Source of the DNA: a virus
DNA: 64,000 bases
Reading direction: 5' to 3' (one strand)
IMG/VR virus record: IMGVR_UViG_3300032050_000044
Coordinates: 1-64,000 of that record
Of this stretch, positions 5,170 through 43,744 are shown piece by piece. The notes below the pieces were generated by a model, which ran no database searches, was not told the origin of the DNA, and saw nothing but the letters and a program-made list of their open reading frames with translations. Positions within the stretch are counted from its first letter, which is position 1; every line of letters begins with the position of its first letter. The position numbers and the translations under genes were made by a program.

Positions 5170-5850
5170 ATGAAAAAATGTACAAAATGTAAAAAAGAAA
5201 AAGAAATATCAGATTTTCATAAACATAAAAAAACAAAGGATGGTCTATGTTGTAGATGTAAAGAATGTTCTTTAGAAGATAAGAGAGAATATTATAAAAA
5301 TAATAAAGATAAGGTAAAGGATGGTGTTAAAAAATATAGAGAAGAAAATATTGATAAAGTAAAAGAACGTGTTAAAAATCATTACGAAAAAAATAGAGAT
5401 TCTTTATTGGAATATAAGAAAAAATACCACATTGATAATGATGAAAGAAGAAGAGATTTAAATTATAAGTGGCGAGAGAAAAATAAAGATAAGATTAGAG
5501 AATATGCTAAAGATTATATTTCAGAAAAGAGGAAGAATGATATACTTTTTAAGATAAAAGATAGTATATCTGGTTTAATACGTAGTTCGATTGTGAGTAA
5601 GGGATATAAAAAGTTGTATAGAACTGAATCTATATTAGGTTGTACAATAGATGAATTTAAAGATTATATACAAAGTAAATTCTTAGATGGTATGACCTGG
5701 GAAAATCATGGTGAGTGGCATTTGGATCATAAAACTCCGGTTTCATGGGCTATAAGTGAATCTGAAGTATATGAGTTAAACCATTATAAAAATTTTCAGC
5801 CTCTTTGGAAGACTGAAAATTTAATTAAGGGTAATAGATGGTCTGATTAG
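5170..5850 (+). CDS. HNH homing endonuclease (next to split DNA polymerase)
   Basis: The N-terminal zinc-ribbon-like part has four Cys pairs (CTKCKKEKE...CCRCKEC). A long Lys/Asn-rich DNA-binding region follows, and then a C-terminal HNH nuclease: WHLDHKTPVS, later NHYKNFQPLW and ENLIKGNR. This is the common layout of free-standing phage HNH endonucleases. It converges on the polymerase C-terminal gene, and the two stop codons overlap by 3 nt. Together with the endonuclease at 7395 it brackets that gene, which suggests that endonuclease insertion split the polymerase. Confidence 0.85.
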   Translation: MKKCTKCKKEKEISDFHKHKKTKDGLCCRCKECSLEDKREYYKNNKDKVKDGVKKYREENIDKVKERVKNHYEKNRDSLLEYKKKYHIDNDERRRDLNYKWREKNKDKIREYAKDYISEKRKNDILFKIKDSISGLIRSSIVSKGYKKLYRTESILGCTIDEFKDYIQSKFLDGMTWENHGEWHLDHKTPVSWAISESEVYELNHYKNFQPLWKTENLIKGNRWSD

Positions 5851-7178
5851 TATTTCATACCAAATCCTGAAAATATGTCTAATACAACTGATAATCTTTC
5901 TGTAATCTCTGGCATTCCTAATGGTTCAATAATTGAGTTTATAGGTGATAGAATTGCTTTATAAAATTGAGTTGTATAATCGACTTGCGGAGCGAACTCG
6001 ATTGGATAAGAACCTCTAATATAAGCAAAGATATCACCGTTTGATTTATTCTTACAATAGTAATACTTAATCTTAGTACCTGACTTAATCATCTCATACT
6101 TATCAGCAAATTGCTTATTAGTGTGTAATAAGTAGTTGTAAAGAGCTGATGCTTTAACAGCAAAGTGAGCTCCTGTTACAAACTCTAATGGTAAAGCTTT
6201 ATCATTAATAACTTTAGTATCATAGTTAGAACAAGAAGATTGCATTGCAATATCATCAATATCAGCTAACTCAAACTCTTTTCTTAAATCTTTAACTAAT
6301 TTTAATAACTCTTTTATGTTAAATGTATTTGAGTTTTCAAATAAGTATTTAACGATGTTGATAATTTTCTCTCTTGCAAAAAGAGGTGTTGATGATCTAA
6401 CTAACTCAACTCCTTTAGGGAATAAGTAAGTTAATCTATCATAAGGAATACCATCTTCAAATACAACGTGTTGAATATATTTCTTTTTAGCGATTGATAT
6501 AATTGATTCTGAAACTCGTTCTAACTCAAAGTCTTCTTTATTTTCAACTCCAAAAGATCCGGCGTATTCTTCTAAACAAGTCTTGAAATAATCAGCATAT
6601 CTAAAATGATCAATACCATGTATATAATCCAATTCGTTAGACCAATTCCAAATGGGTTCACAAGTAAGAGATCCAAAATTTATTAGTTTATTCAAATCTC
6701 TATTTTTAGCAAAATGTCCGTCAATGATTATCATTTCATAATCGGTTGATAATAAATTTTCAAAGTCATTATACTTATCTACATATCCTAAACAATTAGG
6801 GTTATTAAAATTGACATCTTCTTTAGATAATACAATAAACTTTTTGTCAATACTTTCAAGATTACTTTTATTAATAAAGATATTTTTCCATTCAGAGTGT
6901 TCAATTGCTGGTAAGAAAGAAACAAATAATGAGTCAGTATCTGCATAAATACTTACCGGTTCTGAATTAGGTATTTGAGTTACATTTCTAATTCCTAATT
7001 TATTATGTAGTTCAAAGTCTAAGTGCCATTGATTATACCAATAGTCTTCATTAACTCTATCCATTGTCTTTGTTAAATCTCTACCTTGTGCAGTGATGGT
7101 ACCAGCCACATGATTGTTAAACAAGATAAAGTATGGTGTTGCGAATGCTCCGTAAGATCCATTCAAAACTAATTTTAG
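5847..7178 (-). CDS. 43: B-family DNA polymerase, C-terminal subunit (gp43B-like), main reading frame
   Basis: Carries the polymerase palm and thumb: motif B KLVLNGSYGAF at the very start, motif C YADTDSLFV (catalytic Asp pair) about 75 residues later, and a KKKYIQHVV segment matching the KKRY element of T4 gp43. The C-terminal end, PLGMPEITERLSVVLDIF, resembles the T4 gp43 tail that contacts the clamp. The exonuclease domain and motif A are absent from the window, so the N-terminal half is encoded elsewhere. The frame begins at CTA 7178 immediately after a TGA and has no normal start; a TTG at 7166 lies inside motif B and would delete its Lys. The preceding coding segment is 7210-7317, across a 40-nt gap. 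If joined, the product has about 476 residues. Confidence 0.85.
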   Translation of the reverse strand, partial: LKLVLNGSYGAFATPYFILFNNHVAGTITAQGRDLTKTMDRVNEDYWYNQWHLDFELHNKLGIRNVTQIPNSEPVSIYADTDSLFVSFLPAIEHSEWKNIFINKSNLESIDKKFIVLSKEDVNFNNPNCLGYVDKYNDFENLLSTDYEMIIIDGHFAKNRDLNKLINFGSLTCEPIWNWSNELDYIHGIDHFRYADYFKTCLEEYAGSFGVENKEDFELERVSESIISIAKKKYIQHVVFEDGIPYDRLTYLFPKGVELVRSSTPLFAREKIINIVKYLFENSNTFNIKELLKLVKDLRKEFELADIDDIAMQSSCSNYDTKVINDKALPLEFVTGAHFAVKASALYNYLLHTNKQFADKYEMIKSGTKIKYYYCKNKSNGDIFAYIRGSYPIEFAPQVDYTTQFYKAILSPINSIIEPLGMPEITERLSVVLDIFSGFGMKY

Positions 7179-7215
7179 TCATCACCCCCTCAAAATAAAT
7201 TTGAGGGGGTTAAAA
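7176..7215 (-). other. 40-nt hairpin interruption in polymerase: candidate translational bypass site
   Basis: On the minus strand the segment separates CTT (7218-7216) from AAA (7175-7173). It holds a TAA in the upstream frame, an 11-bp stem ACCCCCTCAAA / TTTGAGGGGGT with loop TTTAT, a TGA in the downstream frame, and ends in CTA. Removing exactly these 40 nt gives ...NALQLAL-KLVLNGSYG, restoring the Q-x3-K-x3-N spacing of polymerase motif B. The Leu codons CTT and CTA would be take-off and landing. A 13-bp perfect inverted repeat (7218-7230 with 7255-7267) lies immediately upstream. It is too short for an intron, and no U-tract follows the hairpin on either strand, so it is not a normal terminator. 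Confidence 0.7.
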
Positions 7216-7317
7216 AAGAGCGAGTTGAAGTGCGTTGTAGTAGTCTACCTCTTTCTTCAACTCGCTCGCTTTATTTTTTAATGACTCTAGTTCTTTAATT
7301 TTTTCTTCCCTAGTCAT
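7210..7317 (-). CDS. 43: Short 5' coding segment of polymerase C-terminal subunit
   Basis: Encodes 35 residues ending ...EVDYYNALQLALF then TAA. The Lys/Glu-rich helix and the final YNALQLAL match the region just upstream of motif B in B-family polymerases, where a helix leads into Q-x3-K-x3-N-x-x-Y-G. It starts at ATG 7317 (MTREEKIKEL), with an in-frame TAA upstream at 7341, so the subunit truly begins here and not further left. The continuation is in another frame 40 nt downstream. Its upstream leader carries a small AGTCC/GGACT hairpin (7341-7356) and it is divergent from the endonuclease gene at 7395. Confidence 0.75.
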   Translation of the reverse strand: MTREEKIKELESLKNKASELKKEVDYYNALQLALF

Positions 7318-7394: not shown

Positions 7395-8498
7395 ATGATT
7401 AAAGAAGACAAAGTTTTAGTTAAAATAAATATTAGAAATAAATCTCACTATTCTGAGTTGGGATATTTAATTGATAATGAAATAATTGTTGATGTTGAAC
7501 ATTTACCAAGTGGATCTAAAACCAAAGTAACTGCTATATGTGATATATGTAAATCCGAAAGTTCAATATCATATTCAAAATATCTAATAAATATGAATAG
7601 GAATAACAAAGGATATTATTCTTGCTTTAATTGTAAAAATCATGTTAAAGAAAAGACATGTTTAGAGAAGTATGGTGTTAGATCATATTCGATGACAAGT
7701 GAATTTAAATCAACTGAAAGTGAAAAATGGAAAGGTATTAAAAAGGGATCCGAAAAAGGTAAAAAGACTATGATGGAAAGATATGGTGTTGATTCCTATT
7801 TTAAGACTGATATAATGCGTATTAAAAATCGAGAGTGGATGTCATCAGATGAATTTCGTAATAAGTCAAAGGAGACTTTAATTAGTAGATATGGAGTGGA
7901 CTCTTATTCAAAAACAGATGAGTTTAAAAGATTATTATTTGATAATAAAGATATTATCTTAGATAAGATTAAGAGTACTTTTAAAGAAAAATATGGAAAT
8001 GAATATTTATCAAAGACTGATTATTGGAAGTCAATATTTAATAATAAAAAGAGTGAGATGGTCGATAAAACAAAAAATACTTGTTTAGAGAAGTATGGTG
8101 TTGATAATGTCAGTAAGGTTGAGTCTATTAAAAGTAAAGTTAAATTAACTAAGGAATTAAATGGACTTATTATACCAGAAAGTGAATTAAGTGATTGGGT
8201 TACTTATAAAAAAGTAGTTAGAAACACAACAAAATTAAATAAAAAGTTTTTATACGAAAATTGGGATGGTTTTGACTACTATGATAATGAGTTTATAAAA
8301 GGATATGCTTCATATACACATACGCATAGATTTTACCCTACAATAGATCATAAAATTTCTGTTTATTATGGATATGTTAATAAAATAGATCCAATTACAA
8401 TTGGATCTATTGATAATCTTTGTATTACGAAAAGATTTATTAATTCTATAAAAAATTCTTTAATTGAAGAAGAATTTATCTCAAAGTATCAACTATAA
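7395..8498 (+). CDS. Homing endonuclease with EKYGV repeats
   Basis: 367 residues. After an N-terminal zinc-finger-like region (CDICKS...CFNCK) there are five spaced repeats of the type CLEKYGVxxxSxTxExK (about residues 93-250), typical of a class of phage endonucleases annotated DUF7487-like. The C-terminal domain contains THRFYPTIDHKISVYYG and IDNLCITKRFINSIKN, an HNH-like active-site pattern. A TTTTTATATATAA element lies about 20 nt upstream. It is divergent from the split polymerase gene and may be the element responsible for the split. It overlaps the end of the next convergent gene by 23 nt. Confidence 0.75.
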   Translation: MIKEDKVLVKINIRNKSHYSELGYLIDNEIIVDVEHLPSGSKTKVTAICDICKSESSISYSKYLINMNRNNKGYYSCFNCKNHVKEKTCLEKYGVRSYSMTSEFKSTESEKWKGIKKGSEKGKKTMMERYGVDSYFKTDIMRIKNREWMSSDEFRNKSKETLISRYGVDSYSKTDEFKRLLFDNKDIILDKIKSTFKEKYGNEYLSKTDYWKSIFNNKKSEMVDKTKNTCLEKYGVDNVSKVESIKSKVKLTKELNGLIIPESELSDWVTYKKVVRNTTKLNKKFLYENWDGFDYYDNEFIKGYASYTHTHRFYPTIDHKISVYYGYVNKIDPITIGSIDNLCITKRFINSIKNSLIEEEFISKYQL

Positions 8499-12549: not shown

Positions 12550-12699
12550 ATGAAAGCTAAAGAAATAATGGAGAAATATAAAATTACTAGAAATACATTG
12601 AGTAATTGGGTTAAAAGAGGATGGATAGAAGTTGAGATTTTACCATCCGGTAGATATATCTATCATGAGGTAAAAATTATTAAAAATAATGAGTGTTAA
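12550..12699 (+). CDS. Small helix-turn-helix protein (MerR/excisionase-like)
   Basis: 49 residues starting MKAKEIMEKYKITRNTL. The sequence KEIMEKYKITRNTLSNWVKR, followed by a short wing with PSGRYIY, is the compact HTH of MerR/excisionase-type proteins. The stop overlaps the start of the downstream endonuclease gene by 11 nt, so the two are co-translated. It could regulate the endonuclease or give it DNA specificity as a separate subunit. Confidence 0.65.
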   Translation: MKAKEIMEKYKITRNTLSNWVKRGWIEVEILPSGRYIYHEVKIIKNNEC

Positions 12700-13561
12700 A
12701 TTCGATAATAATGATTTTATAAGAGAATCTATAAAAATACATGGTGATAAATATGACTATTCTTTAGTTAATTATACTAAATCATCTGAAAAGATTATTA
12801 TTAATTGTATGATACATAGACCTTTTGAACAAAGAGCATCTAATCATCTCAGAGGGCGAGGTTGTTATTTTTGTAAAAAATCTAAAAAATATGATTCTGA
12901 TAAATTTATAGAACTATCTAAGAAAGTACATGGTGATAAATATTTATACAAAAATACAATATATACTGGATCTCATAAAAATGTTGTAATAACTTGTAGA
13001 ATACACGGTGATTTTAACCAATCACCAACTAATCATCTAAGTGGTAAAGGTTGTTCTTTTTGTGCCACTGAAAAAAATAGATTAAGTCAAGACTATTTTA
13101 TCGAAAGATGTAATTTGGTGCATAACTATAAATATGATTATAGTTTGGTTCGGTATAAAAATTTAAGGTCAAAAATATTAATAATTTGCAAACATCATGA
13201 TTCATTTGAACAAAGAGCTAAAAATCATTTATTTGGTCAAGGTTGTCCGGAATGTGGTGATAATTTTGGTGTAAAGGAAAATAAATGGTTAGATTCTCTA
13301 AATATATCAGAGAGACAAGTTAGAATAGGTGAGTATATAGTTGATGGATATGATCCTGAAACTAAAACTGTTTATGAATTCAATGGTGATTTTTGGCATG
13401 GCAATCCAGATGTTTTTAAACAAAATGATTATAATAATGTTTTGAAAAAGACATTTGGTGAATTATATAAAAAAACATTAAATAAAGAAAATAATCTAGT
13501 TAAGATGGGTTTTAATATTATCTCTATTTGGGAAAATGATTTTAATAAACTATTTTTGTGA
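12689..13561 (+). CDS. Homing-type endonuclease: DUF723-like zinc repeats plus Vsr-like nuclease
   Basis: 290 residues. Three tandem repeats of about 60 residues (starts near 8, 72 and 135) carry HGDKYDYSLVNY, then C-x-x-H and HL-x-G-x-GCxxC, the DUF723-type zinc module. The C-terminal domain has IVDGYDPETKTVYEFNGDFW followed by HGNP, then ISIWENDF near the end, the D...E-x-(N/D)...W-x-x-D pattern of Vsr/EDxHD-type homing nucleases. It is coupled to the HTH gene just upstream. No split target gene is obvious on either side. Confidence 0.75.
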   Translation: MSVKFDNNDFIRESIKIHGDKYDYSLVNYTKSSEKIIINCMIHRPFEQRASNHLRGRGCYFCKKSKKYDSDKFIELSKKVHGDKYLYKNTIYTGSHKNVVITCRIHGDFNQSPTNHLSGKGCSFCATEKNRLSQDYFIERCNLVHNYKYDYSLVRYKNLRSKILIICKHHDSFEQRAKNHLFGQGCPECGDNFGVKENKWLDSLNISERQVRIGEYIVDGYDPETKTVYEFNGDFWHGNPDVFKQNDYNNVLKKTFGELYKKTLNKENNLVKMGFNIISIWENDFNKLFL

Positions 13562-24571: not shown

Positions 24572-25780
24572 TTATATATTATAAATATTTTTTCTAATTT
24601 TTACTAATAGTTCATTTACAAATGTTTTATCAACTTTATCGGGTAAAGTTGAGTTTTTGAATAGTTCATCAATCTCTTTAATCTCATTCTCAACATCATC
24701 AATTAAAGTTTGAAGATCAACTTTACCTCTTCTGATATTGAGTAATTCTTCAGCATCTGGTCTTCTAACAATAATACCAAGACCTTCAGCAATCTCTCTA
24801 CTCATTTGAGTTAGACGCTTACAATGCATCATGTTTTTACCATCAATTTTTTGACCATGAGATTCAACATCTACCCATCTTTGAGTATTTCTATTCTCTA
24901 ACCATTCTTCATATTCTTTGTATTCTCTACAATGTTGTGAATAACCATCTTTATTATAAATAATGTTACAGATCGGTGTTTCGCCTTTAGGAATTGAAGA
25001 AAGTCTAAGTTGATTTGACTCTGATAAATTATCACCTTCACCAACTTTAATAAGACCTTTATATCCTAAAGCAAGTGGTTTTGATTTTAATTCACCATTT
25101 TCATCTTTATAAAGTCTGGATTCGAACATATAACTTCTCATTCTACTTGTTAGTTTAGTTGAGAAAAGAGATCGAGCTTCATCATCATAATAAACTGCGT
25201 AAACATCTCTGGCGTTCGGTACATTACATACACCACAGAATTTTTCTTCATATCCTTTAGTTTCATTCCAAACTTTCCAAGGAATAGATTTCTCACCTTC
25301 GATTACATAAACAAAGTCAAGTACATCTTTACGAGTAACTCTATCTCTTTCCCAGTTTTGTTTTTTATTTTGACCTTTTGCTTTTTGAATTTGTTGAACT
25401 GCGTATCCACCAAAAGATTTAGCACATATTTTAGTAATAAACTTATCTTTATTATTTAATATTTCATCAAAGATGGGATCTTTATAAACAATACAATCTT
25501 CTGGTGTATTAAGTAGTTCTAATACAGTTGGATTATTACTTTCTAATAGTTGAAGAAATCTTCTAATTTCATAGATAACAATATCATTTTTATCATCATT
25601 GATTTGTTCAACGTAATTAAAACCTAAAATATCTTCCATGGATTGTATAAAGACACCTGAGAAATCGGTATCCGAAGTTTCAATATTTGTTCCATATGCG
25701 TGAGATCCTCTAATAACTAAGAGTAAAGGTTTAGCACCTGGTGATTTTTCTTGTATTAAATTTAATAGTTCTTGTTTCAT
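24572..25780 (-). CDS. RlaP-like nucleotidyltransferase (Pol beta superfamily)
   Basis: 402 residues. The N-terminal motif LVIRGSHAYGTNIETSDTDF gives the G-S and D-x-D (Asp37, Asp39) of the Pol beta fold, in the form typical of the RlaP family (Pfam PF10127), which is linked to RNA repair. The next segment, DIVIYEIRRFLQLLESNNPT VLELL in two parts, also fits. The C-terminal half includes a helical region with HCKRLTQMSREIAEG and RRGKVDLQTLIDDVE. Possible roles are repair of tRNAs cut by host defence nucleases, or nucleotidylation of RNA. It has its own host-type promoter, so it is probably expressed early. No RNA ligase partner is seen nearby. Confidence 0.85.
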   Translation of the reverse strand: MKQELLNLIQEKSPGAKPLLLVIRGSHAYGTNIETSDTDFSGVFIQSMEDILGFNYVEQINDDKNDIVIYEIRRFLQLLESNNPTVLELLNTPEDCIVYKDPIFDEILNNKDKFITKICAKSFGGYAVQQIQKAKGQNKKQNWERDRVTRKDVLDFVYVIEGEKSIPWKVWNETKGYEEKFCGVCNVPNARDVYAVYYDDEARSLFSTKLTSRMRSYMFESRLYKDENGELKSKPLALGYKGLIKVGEGDNLSESNQLRLSSIPKGETPICNIIYNKDGYSQHCREYKEYEEWLENRNTQRWVDVESHGQKIDGKNMMHCKRLTQMSREIAEGLGIIVRRPDAEELLNIRRGKVDLQTLIDDVENEIKEIDELFKNSTLPDKVDKTFVNELLVKIRKNIYNI

Positions 25781-42355: not shown

Positions 42356-42406
42356 TCTAATGGAGGGTAAAACATATAATATATAATGGTAAATAAAATT
42401 ATCATT

Positions 42407-43744
42407 ATGCAAATATATAAAATTACCAATCTAATAAATAATAAAATTTATATAGGTAAAGATACTACATCAGATCCAAATTATTTTGGATCTGGTTTAC
42501 TTATTAAACGTGCCATAAGTAAATATGGAATCAACAATTTTATCAAAGAGGTTATTGATGAGACTGATGATTATCTGGAATTGTCTAAAAAAGAAATTTA
42601 TTGGATATCTGAGTATGATTCAACTAAAAGAGATATAGGATATAATATTTCTCCTGGTGGAGATGGTGGTGATACACTTTCAAATCATCCAGATTTGGAT
42701 TTAATAAAAGAGAAGATATCCAAAAGTAGTAAAACTAAAGGAAGAACATATGAAGAGTCTTTTGGTGAAGTAAGAGCTACTGAATATAAAGAAAAACTCA
42801 AAGTAAATATTAATAAGAATATTTTATCAATTAATTCTATATTAAAAAATAAACAGAGGTGGGAGGAATTTAATGATAAATTCAAAGAAAGGTGTGAATT
42901 TATTAAGAATGAAATAAATCAAGGTAGGTTTGATGAATATGTGAATGAAATTAAATTGATTAAAAAAAGAGTTTATAATAATTTTCTTAAAAACACTGAT
43001 GGATTCTATGATTTTTTTGGACATGAATTAAAATATTTTTTTGGAAAATATAAAATTAGAGAAGATTTGGAATTTGATAAGATTGATAAGTTAATTTTTG
43101 AAAAAAATATAGATGGTCTAATTTCTTATCTCGATTGTGTTCCAAATAGGTTTTTCAAAAGAAGATATAAATTCTATGAATATCTTGGTCAAGATTTAAA
43201 ATTAAAAATAAAGATTAGACTTAATGAAAAAAGAAAACGATTTGACCAAGAAACTAAAATAAAAATAATAATAGATGGCGTTGAATATGATTCAATTTCA
43301 GATGCTGTGAGTAAAATAGATATTGATAGGTCATTAATTCGATTTAGACTTAGATCACCACGCTTTAAAAACTATCTTTTTGTTGATAATGATTTGAATA
43401 TAAAGTATAATAAATTTGTTGAAGTTGATCCTCATTTATCAAAAAAAGAGAGAGTGTCAATAGACGGTGTTGAATATGGTTCTATAACCGATGCTACAAA
43501 GATTCTTAATAAAGAATATGATTATATAAGTTGGAGACTTAATTCTAAATCATATCCAGAATGGTTTTACTTAGATAAAGTAGTTGAACTAAAGGAAACT
43601 GGTGTACCGAAGTTAAAACCAGTTTCTATAAATGGTGTTGAATATGAATCTATATCAATGGCTGTTGAGAAGAGTGGTATTGATAGACAAATAATGAGAT
43701 ATAGATTAAAATCAAATAATTATCCTGAATATTTTTATATATAG
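42407..43744 (+). CDS. GIY-YIG homing endonuclease with three C-terminal repeats
   Basis: About 445 residues from ATG 42407 (MQIYKITNLINNKIYIGKD). The GIY-YIG core reads YKITNLINNKIYIGKDT, FGSGLLIKRAISKYG and a Glu-containing LSKKEIYWISEY. After a long helical linker come three repeats of about 45-55 residues with (I/V)xG(V)EYxSIxxA and a WRL/RFRL/RYRL element, each ending in a short hydrophobic strand, typical of NUMOD-type DNA-binding modules. It lies between the prohead-core-like gene and a small cupin-like gene. Confidence 0.8.
   Translation: MQIYKITNLINNKIYIGKDTTSDPNYFGSGLLIKRAISKYGINNFIKEVIDETDDYLELSKKEIYWISEYDSTKRDIGYNISPGGDGGDTLSNHPDLDLIKEKISKSSKTKGRTYEESFGEVRATEYKEKLKVNINKNILSINSILKNKQRWEEFNDKFKERCEFIKNEINQGRFDEYVNEIKLIKKRVYNNFLKNTDGFYDFFGHELKYFFGKYKIREDLEFDKIDKLIFEKNIDGLISYLDCVPNRFFKRRYKFYEYLGQDLKLKIKIRLNEKRKRFDQETKIKIIIDGVEYDSISDAVSKIDIDRSLIRFRLRSPRFKNYLFVDNDLNIKYNKFVEVDPHLSKKERVSIDGVEYGSITDATKILNKEYDYISWRLNSKSYPEWFYLDKVVELKETGVPKLKPVSINGVEYESISMAVEKSGIDRQIMRYRLKSNNYPEYFYI

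Follow-up and report, generated by a model that had tools for sequence, protein, structure and literature searches.

The window, the 64,000-nt stretch of viral DNA analysed here, belongs to a 101-kb record and carries on its minus strand a polymerase gene whose coding sequence lies in two ORFs separated by a gap (Table 1). The upstream ORF (7317-7210, 35 codons) is translated as MTREEKIKELESLKNKASELKKEVDYYNALQLALF, followed by a stop codon. In relatives without the insert its peptide MTREEKIKELESLKNKASELKKEVDYYNALQLAL is conserved and continues directly into the remainder of the polymerase. The downstream ORF resumes at the AAA codon at 7175 (KLVLNGSYGAF...). It matched PF00136 (E=7.6e-13) and phrog_262, DNA polymerase (E=1.3e-42), on 7166-5850, and with NGSYG and YADTDS both present it was identified as a family-B DNA polymerase. 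A preliminary description of this DNA had reported a 35-codon minus-strand ORF ending in YNALQLALF-stop, with the polymerase resuming at KLVLNGSYG 40 nt further on. These coordinates were correct, base for base. The short ORF is real, but it is actually the beginning of a gene for a C-terminal half-polymerase.

Table 1. Features of the interrupted polymerase locus and adjoining genes (positions within the window)
Feature	Position	Strand	Remarks
ORF1 of the C-terminal half-polymerase gene	7210..7317	-	34 codons to take-off, then TTT and stop TAA
5' arm of the upstream stem-loop (5' SL)	7255..7267	-	codons for (A)SELK; 13-bp perfect pairing with 7218-7230
3' arm of the 5' SL	7218..7230	-	codons LQLA and first base of the take-off codon
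Putative take-off codon CTT (Leu34)	7216..7218	-	position preserves motif B spacing
Putatively untranslated insert, 40 nt	7176..7215	-	gap 7215-7179 plus landing codon 7178-7176
Gap hairpin, 11 bp, 5-nt loop	7184..7210 (arms 7210-7200/7194-7184)	-	begins 5 nt past the take-off codon
Putative landing codon CTA	7176..7178	-	5 nt past the gap hairpin
ORF2, rest of the family-B DNA polymerase C-terminal half	5847..7175	-	motif B K-L-V-L-N-G-S-Y-G, motif C YADTDS, thumb
Divergent homing-endonuclease gene (DUF7487 type)	7395..8498	+	phrog_3339 E=8e-11, phrog_12131 E=7e-7 ('homing endonuclease')
HNH/endonuclease VII-like gene	5170..5850	+	adjoins polymerase 3' end; phrog_1035 E=2.7e-21

The structural features proposed in the same description were also present in the sequence: the 11-bp stem with its 5-nt loop, the stop codons and other features of the gap, and a 13-bp inverted repeat ending at the take-off codon, the last pair of which falls on the first base of CTT. 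The gap hairpin has a predicted dG of -19.9, and a G-run in its 3' arm is Shine-Dalgarno-like. Since the upstream segment folds at z ~ -5.5 relative to synonymous-codon shuffles, its structure is not a product of chance. The divergent endonuclease gene is likely to be the mobility partner of the insert. The endonuclease VII-like gene is probably not required, because few of the relatives have it. The 64 kb contain at least four endonuclease-like genes (5170-5850, 7395-8498, 12689-13561 and 42386-43744), three of them matched to PHROGs and one GIY-YIG-like by eye, and the genome is rich in such mobile genes. An RlaP-type nucleotidyltransferase, related to RNA repair, is encoded on the minus strand at 24572-25780 (PF10127, E=1.3e-19). 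No tRNA genes were found in the 101-kb record.

Comparison with relatives lacking the insert had been suggested as a check, and such relatives exist. Tblastn-confirmed IMG/VR loci and two huge-phage genomes of ~640 kb (LR756502 and LR745206) yielded 54 distinct junctions. Twenty of these are insert-free, measure exactly 54 nt from YYN to GAF, are open throughout motif B and encode one protein. The other 34 contain 36-48 nt extra in 10 different lengths, namely 36 (2 junctions), 38 (4), 39 (3), 40 (12), 41 (4), 42 (4) and 43 nt (2), and 44, 46 and 48 nt (one each); the length modulo 3 is 0 in 10, 1 in 15 and 2 in 9. When 7215-7176 is deleted from the window, the junction reads YYNALQLAL-KLVLNGSYG, the uninterrupted peptide of 26 relatives (20 distinct sequences). 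An assembly error, named earlier as a possible refutation, was not borne out, because identical inserts occur in separately assembled contigs (L003 and L009 with the window; L025 and L026 with L027) and differing ones at the polymerase site in dozens of other contigs.

The inserts occupy six points within ten codons of motif B, every one at a codon boundary. In YYNALQLALKLVLNGSYG (first Y = 0) they follow A7, L8, V11, G14, S15 or Y16. Class A (after A7, 5 loci) has the putative take-off codon GCU and lands on GCU or GCA. Class B (after L8, 17 loci including the window) takes off from CTT in 16 loci and CTG in one, and the landing codon CTA is constant (17/17) despite a variable spacer in front of it. 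One locus after V11 (class C, GUU-GUU), two after G14 (class D, GGU-GGU) and one after S15 (class E, UCU-UCA) complete the matched classes. The landing codon falls in the box of the take-off codon in 26/26 loci of classes A-E, in favour of the CTT take-off and CTA landing proposed for the window. Class F (after Y16, UAU/UAC; L019, L020, L022, L024, L028, L031, L039 and L064) sits directly behind the motif B tyrosine. Its landing triplets (AAC, UAA, AGC, CAA and GAC) do not match UAU or UAC and in L024 and L039 are the stop codon TAA, so that re-pairing in this class must be partial or dispensable. Nearly all take-off codons end in U (CUU 16, UAU 7, GCU 5, GGU 2, one GUU and one UCU), the exceptions being CUG and UAC.

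Pattern searches did not extend the family beyond the polymerase. A scan of all collected loci for similar C-run/G-run hairpins between open frames returned polymerase sites only, and genome-wide in 26 related records a C5N8-26G5 hairpin occurs about once per genome, at the polymerase site. Four additional C5N8-26G5 sites in these records were inspected and were not bypass-like. Scanning IMG/VR with the class B signature added two more polymerase cases (L215 and L218); the remaining hits were unrelated. No relatives were found in bacterial genome contigs, nor was a cultured carrier found in the collections searched.

These data bear on several explanations of the interruption. Recoding or read-through of the stop codon, or codon reassignment, does not fit, because TAA, TAG and TGA are all used, four loci lack an early stop codon in the gap, and the frames differ. 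An intrinsic terminator (stem and U-run) would suit some class B loci only, the other classes having no U-run. Excision of the 40 nt from RNA or DNA before translation, in the manner of a minimal intron, was also weighed: the protein is restored exactly once the insert is deleted, the hairpin layout might act as a processing signal, and the unmatched landing triplets of class F would be of no consequence. However, no Rfam intron was matched between 4 and 10 kb of the window, nor any other RNA family over the site, and a self-splicing core would not fit into 36-48 nt (40 nt here). Each of the six sites falls on a codon boundary, the letters shared in classes A-E are codon-aligned and differ at the wobble position only (CUU/CUA, GCU/GCA, UCU/UCA), and the hairpin keeps a fixed distance from an in-frame codon. 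The ends of the class F inserts are moreover precise and unambiguous, leaving no repeats for recombination. We consider excision very unlikely.

The polymerase is split in the fingers domain in insert-bearing and insert-free phages alike (G004, G008, G009, G011, G012, G015, G016 and G020). In large records the N-terminal half, which comprises the exonuclease and N-palm in ~510 codons, is encoded at a distance of tens of kb or more from the C-terminal half, and each large record with both has one N-half and one C-half, including the insert-bearing G008, G009, G011 and G020. No N-terminal half was found in the 101-kb record of the window, probably because this record is a fragment. In comparisons between relatives with the insert, dN is much lower than dS on either side of the gap (downstream in L020/L022, 0.099 versus 0.738), and both flanking frames are under purifying selection. 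A degenerate gene, disabled by the insert and replaced by another polymerase, would account for the stop codon and frame change and could draw on the missing N-half. It is nevertheless scarcely credible given this selection, the retention of the layout in 34 distinct sequences and the conservation of RNA structure around the site by compensatory change. A separately encoded complete polymerase, which would have marked the gene as a dead fragment, was not found among family-B polymerases in the large records with both halves; other families were not covered.

The existing division into N and C halves also raises the question of a polymerase in three pieces, the 35-residue peptide and the downstream part being made by termination and re-initiation and then assembling. 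The G-run in the hairpin 3' arm resembles a ribosome-binding site, and the window has a TTG (7166) just before NGSYG. This TTG refines the earlier statement that no usable start exists above motif B. In most relatives, though, the resumed frame offers no ATG, GTG or TTG ahead of motif B and no start within it, and in all loci but one the first ATG comes 30-39 codons past the landing site. In L024 and L039, furthermore, the triplet ahead of the resumed frame is TAA. Assembly of an active site from pieces broken at six varying places in the motif B helix and catalytic Tyr-Gly is very hard to envisage, and we judge the three-piece enzyme highly improbable.

RNA structure was compared across the family. 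Every insert has a G/C gap hairpin of at least 9 bp that starts 5-6 nt past the take-off codon (a few have extra extending pairs) and usually ends 4-8 nt from the landing codon (range to 10). Its inner pairs (4-9) are kept in 162/162 cases, compared with a maximum of 126 when the 3' arms were shuffled among loci; the pairs of the gap hairpin covary. A second stem-loop lies upstream, within the coding sequence, and stops 0-4 nt from where the take-off codon ends. In classes A and B, 204/228 of its pairs are kept versus at most 202 in 5,000 shuffles, while at the same positions in insert-free relatives only 112/240 are. Compensatory changes in this stem include GC/CG/AT at pair 33-74 and AT/CG at 39-68. 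The upstream stem shifts with the take-off site and is absent from insert-free genes. When folding was evaluated to codon 9, the mean z was -4.2 in classes A/B, ~ -0.8 in D/E, -0.35 in F and ~0 in insert-free genes; to codon 17, it was -4.2 in D/E, -3.4 in F, -8.4 in C and again ~0 in insert-free genes. Insert-bearing genes at their own sites differed from insert-free ones with p=4e-9. The stem is weak in two class F loci (L019 and L024), and restricting the arm-shuffle test to classes D-F gives only weak support (p=0.032, 11 sequences). Both arms are coding, so codon choice has been pulled towards RNA structure, as apparently have the amino acids in D-F. The p-values are optimistic, since the compared sequences are related and their independence is overstated.

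A further sequence, GAGTCAT (ESL codons, window 7287-7279), was seen to be nearly confined to insert-bearing genes. In class B it could pair with the landing site AUGACUA (window 7182-7176) as a third helix, for which the evidence is suggestive (permutation p=0.0075, few independent sequences). In classes D-F it can instead pair with the LNGS codons ahead of take-off.

An endonuclease gene occupies the cassette position in 20/32 insert-bearing loci (one a remnant) and in 0/20 insert-free loci (Fisher p=3e-6). The endonuclease ORF is divergent and in 19/32 insert-bearing loci has its start ~80-180 nt ahead of the YYN codons of the polymerase ORF. Most of these endonucleases match homing-endonuclease PHROGs; that of L052, in the same place, is instead GIY-YIG with NUMOD3. 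A homing-endonuclease gene thus adjoins most inserts, as the analogy drawn earlier with T4 gene 60 and its neighbouring mobile endonuclease implied. The endonuclease stands beside the insert and is missing from empty sites, as in a homing-endonuclease mobile cassette; cleavage, the target of the endonuclease and homing itself are inferred. Insert-bearing loci without an endonuclease are readily explained as later losses. In L025, the class B insert of which is intact, a short endonuclease-like remnant was observed ~280-550 nt upstream of the junction, as would be seen if the endonuclease were decaying after fixation.

The distribution of the insert is patchy. On a maximum-likelihood tree of the C-half the insert-free state needs 17 changes, at least 13 of them forced by well-supported branches, which is no better than shuffled labels; the inserts are scattered. 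Across most of the 17 kb compared, L016 (an empty site) and L020 (with a class F insert) share 93-95% identity in their flanks, and L020 has in addition an endonuclease gene of ~860 bp and a 39-nt insert. Around these two the identity drops to 84% (-110 to +26). This tract can be read as the footprint expected of gene conversion after homing, and on this comparison we regard the pair as decisive.

Taken together, we interpret the insert, with a probability of about 0.9, as an element for programmed translational bypass that most likely spread in a cassette with the homing endonuclease beside it. This reading is strongly supported by comparison; it has no transcript, peptide or reporter evidence behind it. 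Nonetheless, bypass is the only reading found that jointly explains the placement at codon boundaries, the fixed spacing, the codon match in five classes, the travelling stem and the selection. According to the proposed mechanism, ribosomes would translate 34 codons of the C-terminal half gene and halt with peptidyl-tRNA-Leu on CTT, where the gap hairpin, 5-6 nt downstream, would block the A site or entry channel. Once the tRNA leaves CTT, the upstream stem-loop could fold behind the ribosome and either pull the mRNA or keep it moving. The ribosome would then slide across 37 nt, the anticodon would re-pair at CTA just beyond the G-run of the hairpin, and decoding would restart at AAA to give an intact motif B. 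Ribosome sliding and the efficiency of bypass are inferred. A further inference is that in classes A, B and E, where a U-ending codon is exchanged for an A-ending one of the same box, a single tRNA would give up a weaker pair in favour of a stronger one. By interrupting the motif B sequence, the insert would also protect its carrier from the endonuclease, and bypass would keep the polymerase working meanwhile.

In T4 gene 60, a stem-loop in the A site, a 5' stem-loop behind the ribosome and a Shine-Dalgarno-like stretch before landing drive sliding over 50 nt (PMC11194080, PMC5009743), and a 2010 review considered that the process appeared unique to that gene (PMC3014915). Gene 60 with its MobA endonuclease resembles the polymerase element in many respects (PMC5009743, PMC3014915, PMC11194080). 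Both are in a split DNA-replication gene and have a homing endonuclease nearby; the C-terminal piece of the gene begins with an ORF1 that is short, with 46 codons in T4 and 34 in the window. Both have a gap of tens of nucleotides, inferred in the polymerase to be untranslated, with, in most cases, a stop right past take-off, a stem-loop near the A site and a 5' stem-loop in the coding sequence, matched take-off and landing codons (in most loci here) and a purine-rich Shine-Dalgarno-like stretch before landing. Apart from a demonstrable insert-specific nascent peptide, the elements that are known to matter for T4 bypass are present. The ORF1 peptide is lysine-rich, but no such signal is evident, because it is equally conserved in insert-free relatives, and there is no insert-specific peptide of the KKYK type.

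Other properties differ. The interrupted gene is a topoisomerase in T4 and here a polymerase at motif B, in unrelated phages; the gap is 50 nt in T4 and 36-48 nt here; and GGA-GGA corresponds to CUU-CUA in the window. The T4 hairpin includes the take-off codon, whereas the polymerase hairpin starts 5-6 nt past it and fills most of the gap. In the polymerase there are dozens of variants at six sites, and the endonuclease, in contrast to MobA, is divergently transcribed and of two kinds (DUF7487-type or GIY-YIG). Descent from the gene 60/MobA cassette finds no support, the host gene and the sequence and length of the gap being different. By any sign here, the polymerase element would work like gene 60 without being derived from it, and the bypass proposed in the preliminary description, with its gap hairpin, its upstream stem and its independence of gene 60, gains from the intact insert-free versions, the recurrence, the covariation and the site-following upstream stem. 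That description had not recognised what the comparison points to, namely a split gene, a widespread mobile family and one class with an unmatched landing codon.

The literature searched contained no description of bypass in polymerases of huge phages. Long-distance bypass in phages previously rested on one gene of one phage. The polymerase inserts would represent a second phage bypass system, a diversified one with the build of the gene 60/MobA cassette in a different gene, and apparently the first widespread, evolving bypass family, found in many very large uncultured phages, for a trick proven in phages only for T4 gene 60. With 34 distinct elements, empty-site controls and varied gaps, codons and sites, rules of take-off and landing become readable by comparison and directly testable. 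The data support the view that bypass arises because it makes tolerable an insert which gives protection against a homing endonuclease, and they warn that in huge phages the polymerase genes will be wrongly annotated as broken. It is quite probable, though less firmly grounded than the bypass itself, that bypass elements borne by homing-endonuclease genes form a general mobile class in huge phages, which invade many codon positions of motif B, remodel the coding sequence upstream into a matching stem-loop on landing or shifting, and outlast their endonuclease. For class F, it may be RNA structure that determines landing, and not a match between codon and anticodon.

Among other systems, the Streptomyces phage Hau3 terminase is likewise a proposed phage bypass, but with a far shorter gap, as a single candidate and with no endonuclease link stated in the available part of the source (PMC5009743). 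The byp elements of Magnusiomyces capitatus mitochondria are also numerous, mobile-looking, short bypassed inserts that tolerate an imperfect codon match; they are reported at 81 sites in 12/15 genes and as independent of mRNA context (PMC5009743), whereas the polymerase inserts are confined to one gene and have strong local structure. Inteins and group I introns are similarly endonuclease-bearing parasitic elements in invariant polymerase motifs, but the polymerase insert has neither a splicing domain nor catalytic RNA, and its product would be restored by translational skipping. Insertions at motif C (YADTD/S), several with the intein-like ending ...THTFIxNDILVHN/S, were observed in L037, L053, L059, L066-L068, L142, L179 and L180 (Lak-A1), and several genes carry both a motif C insertion and a bypass insert.
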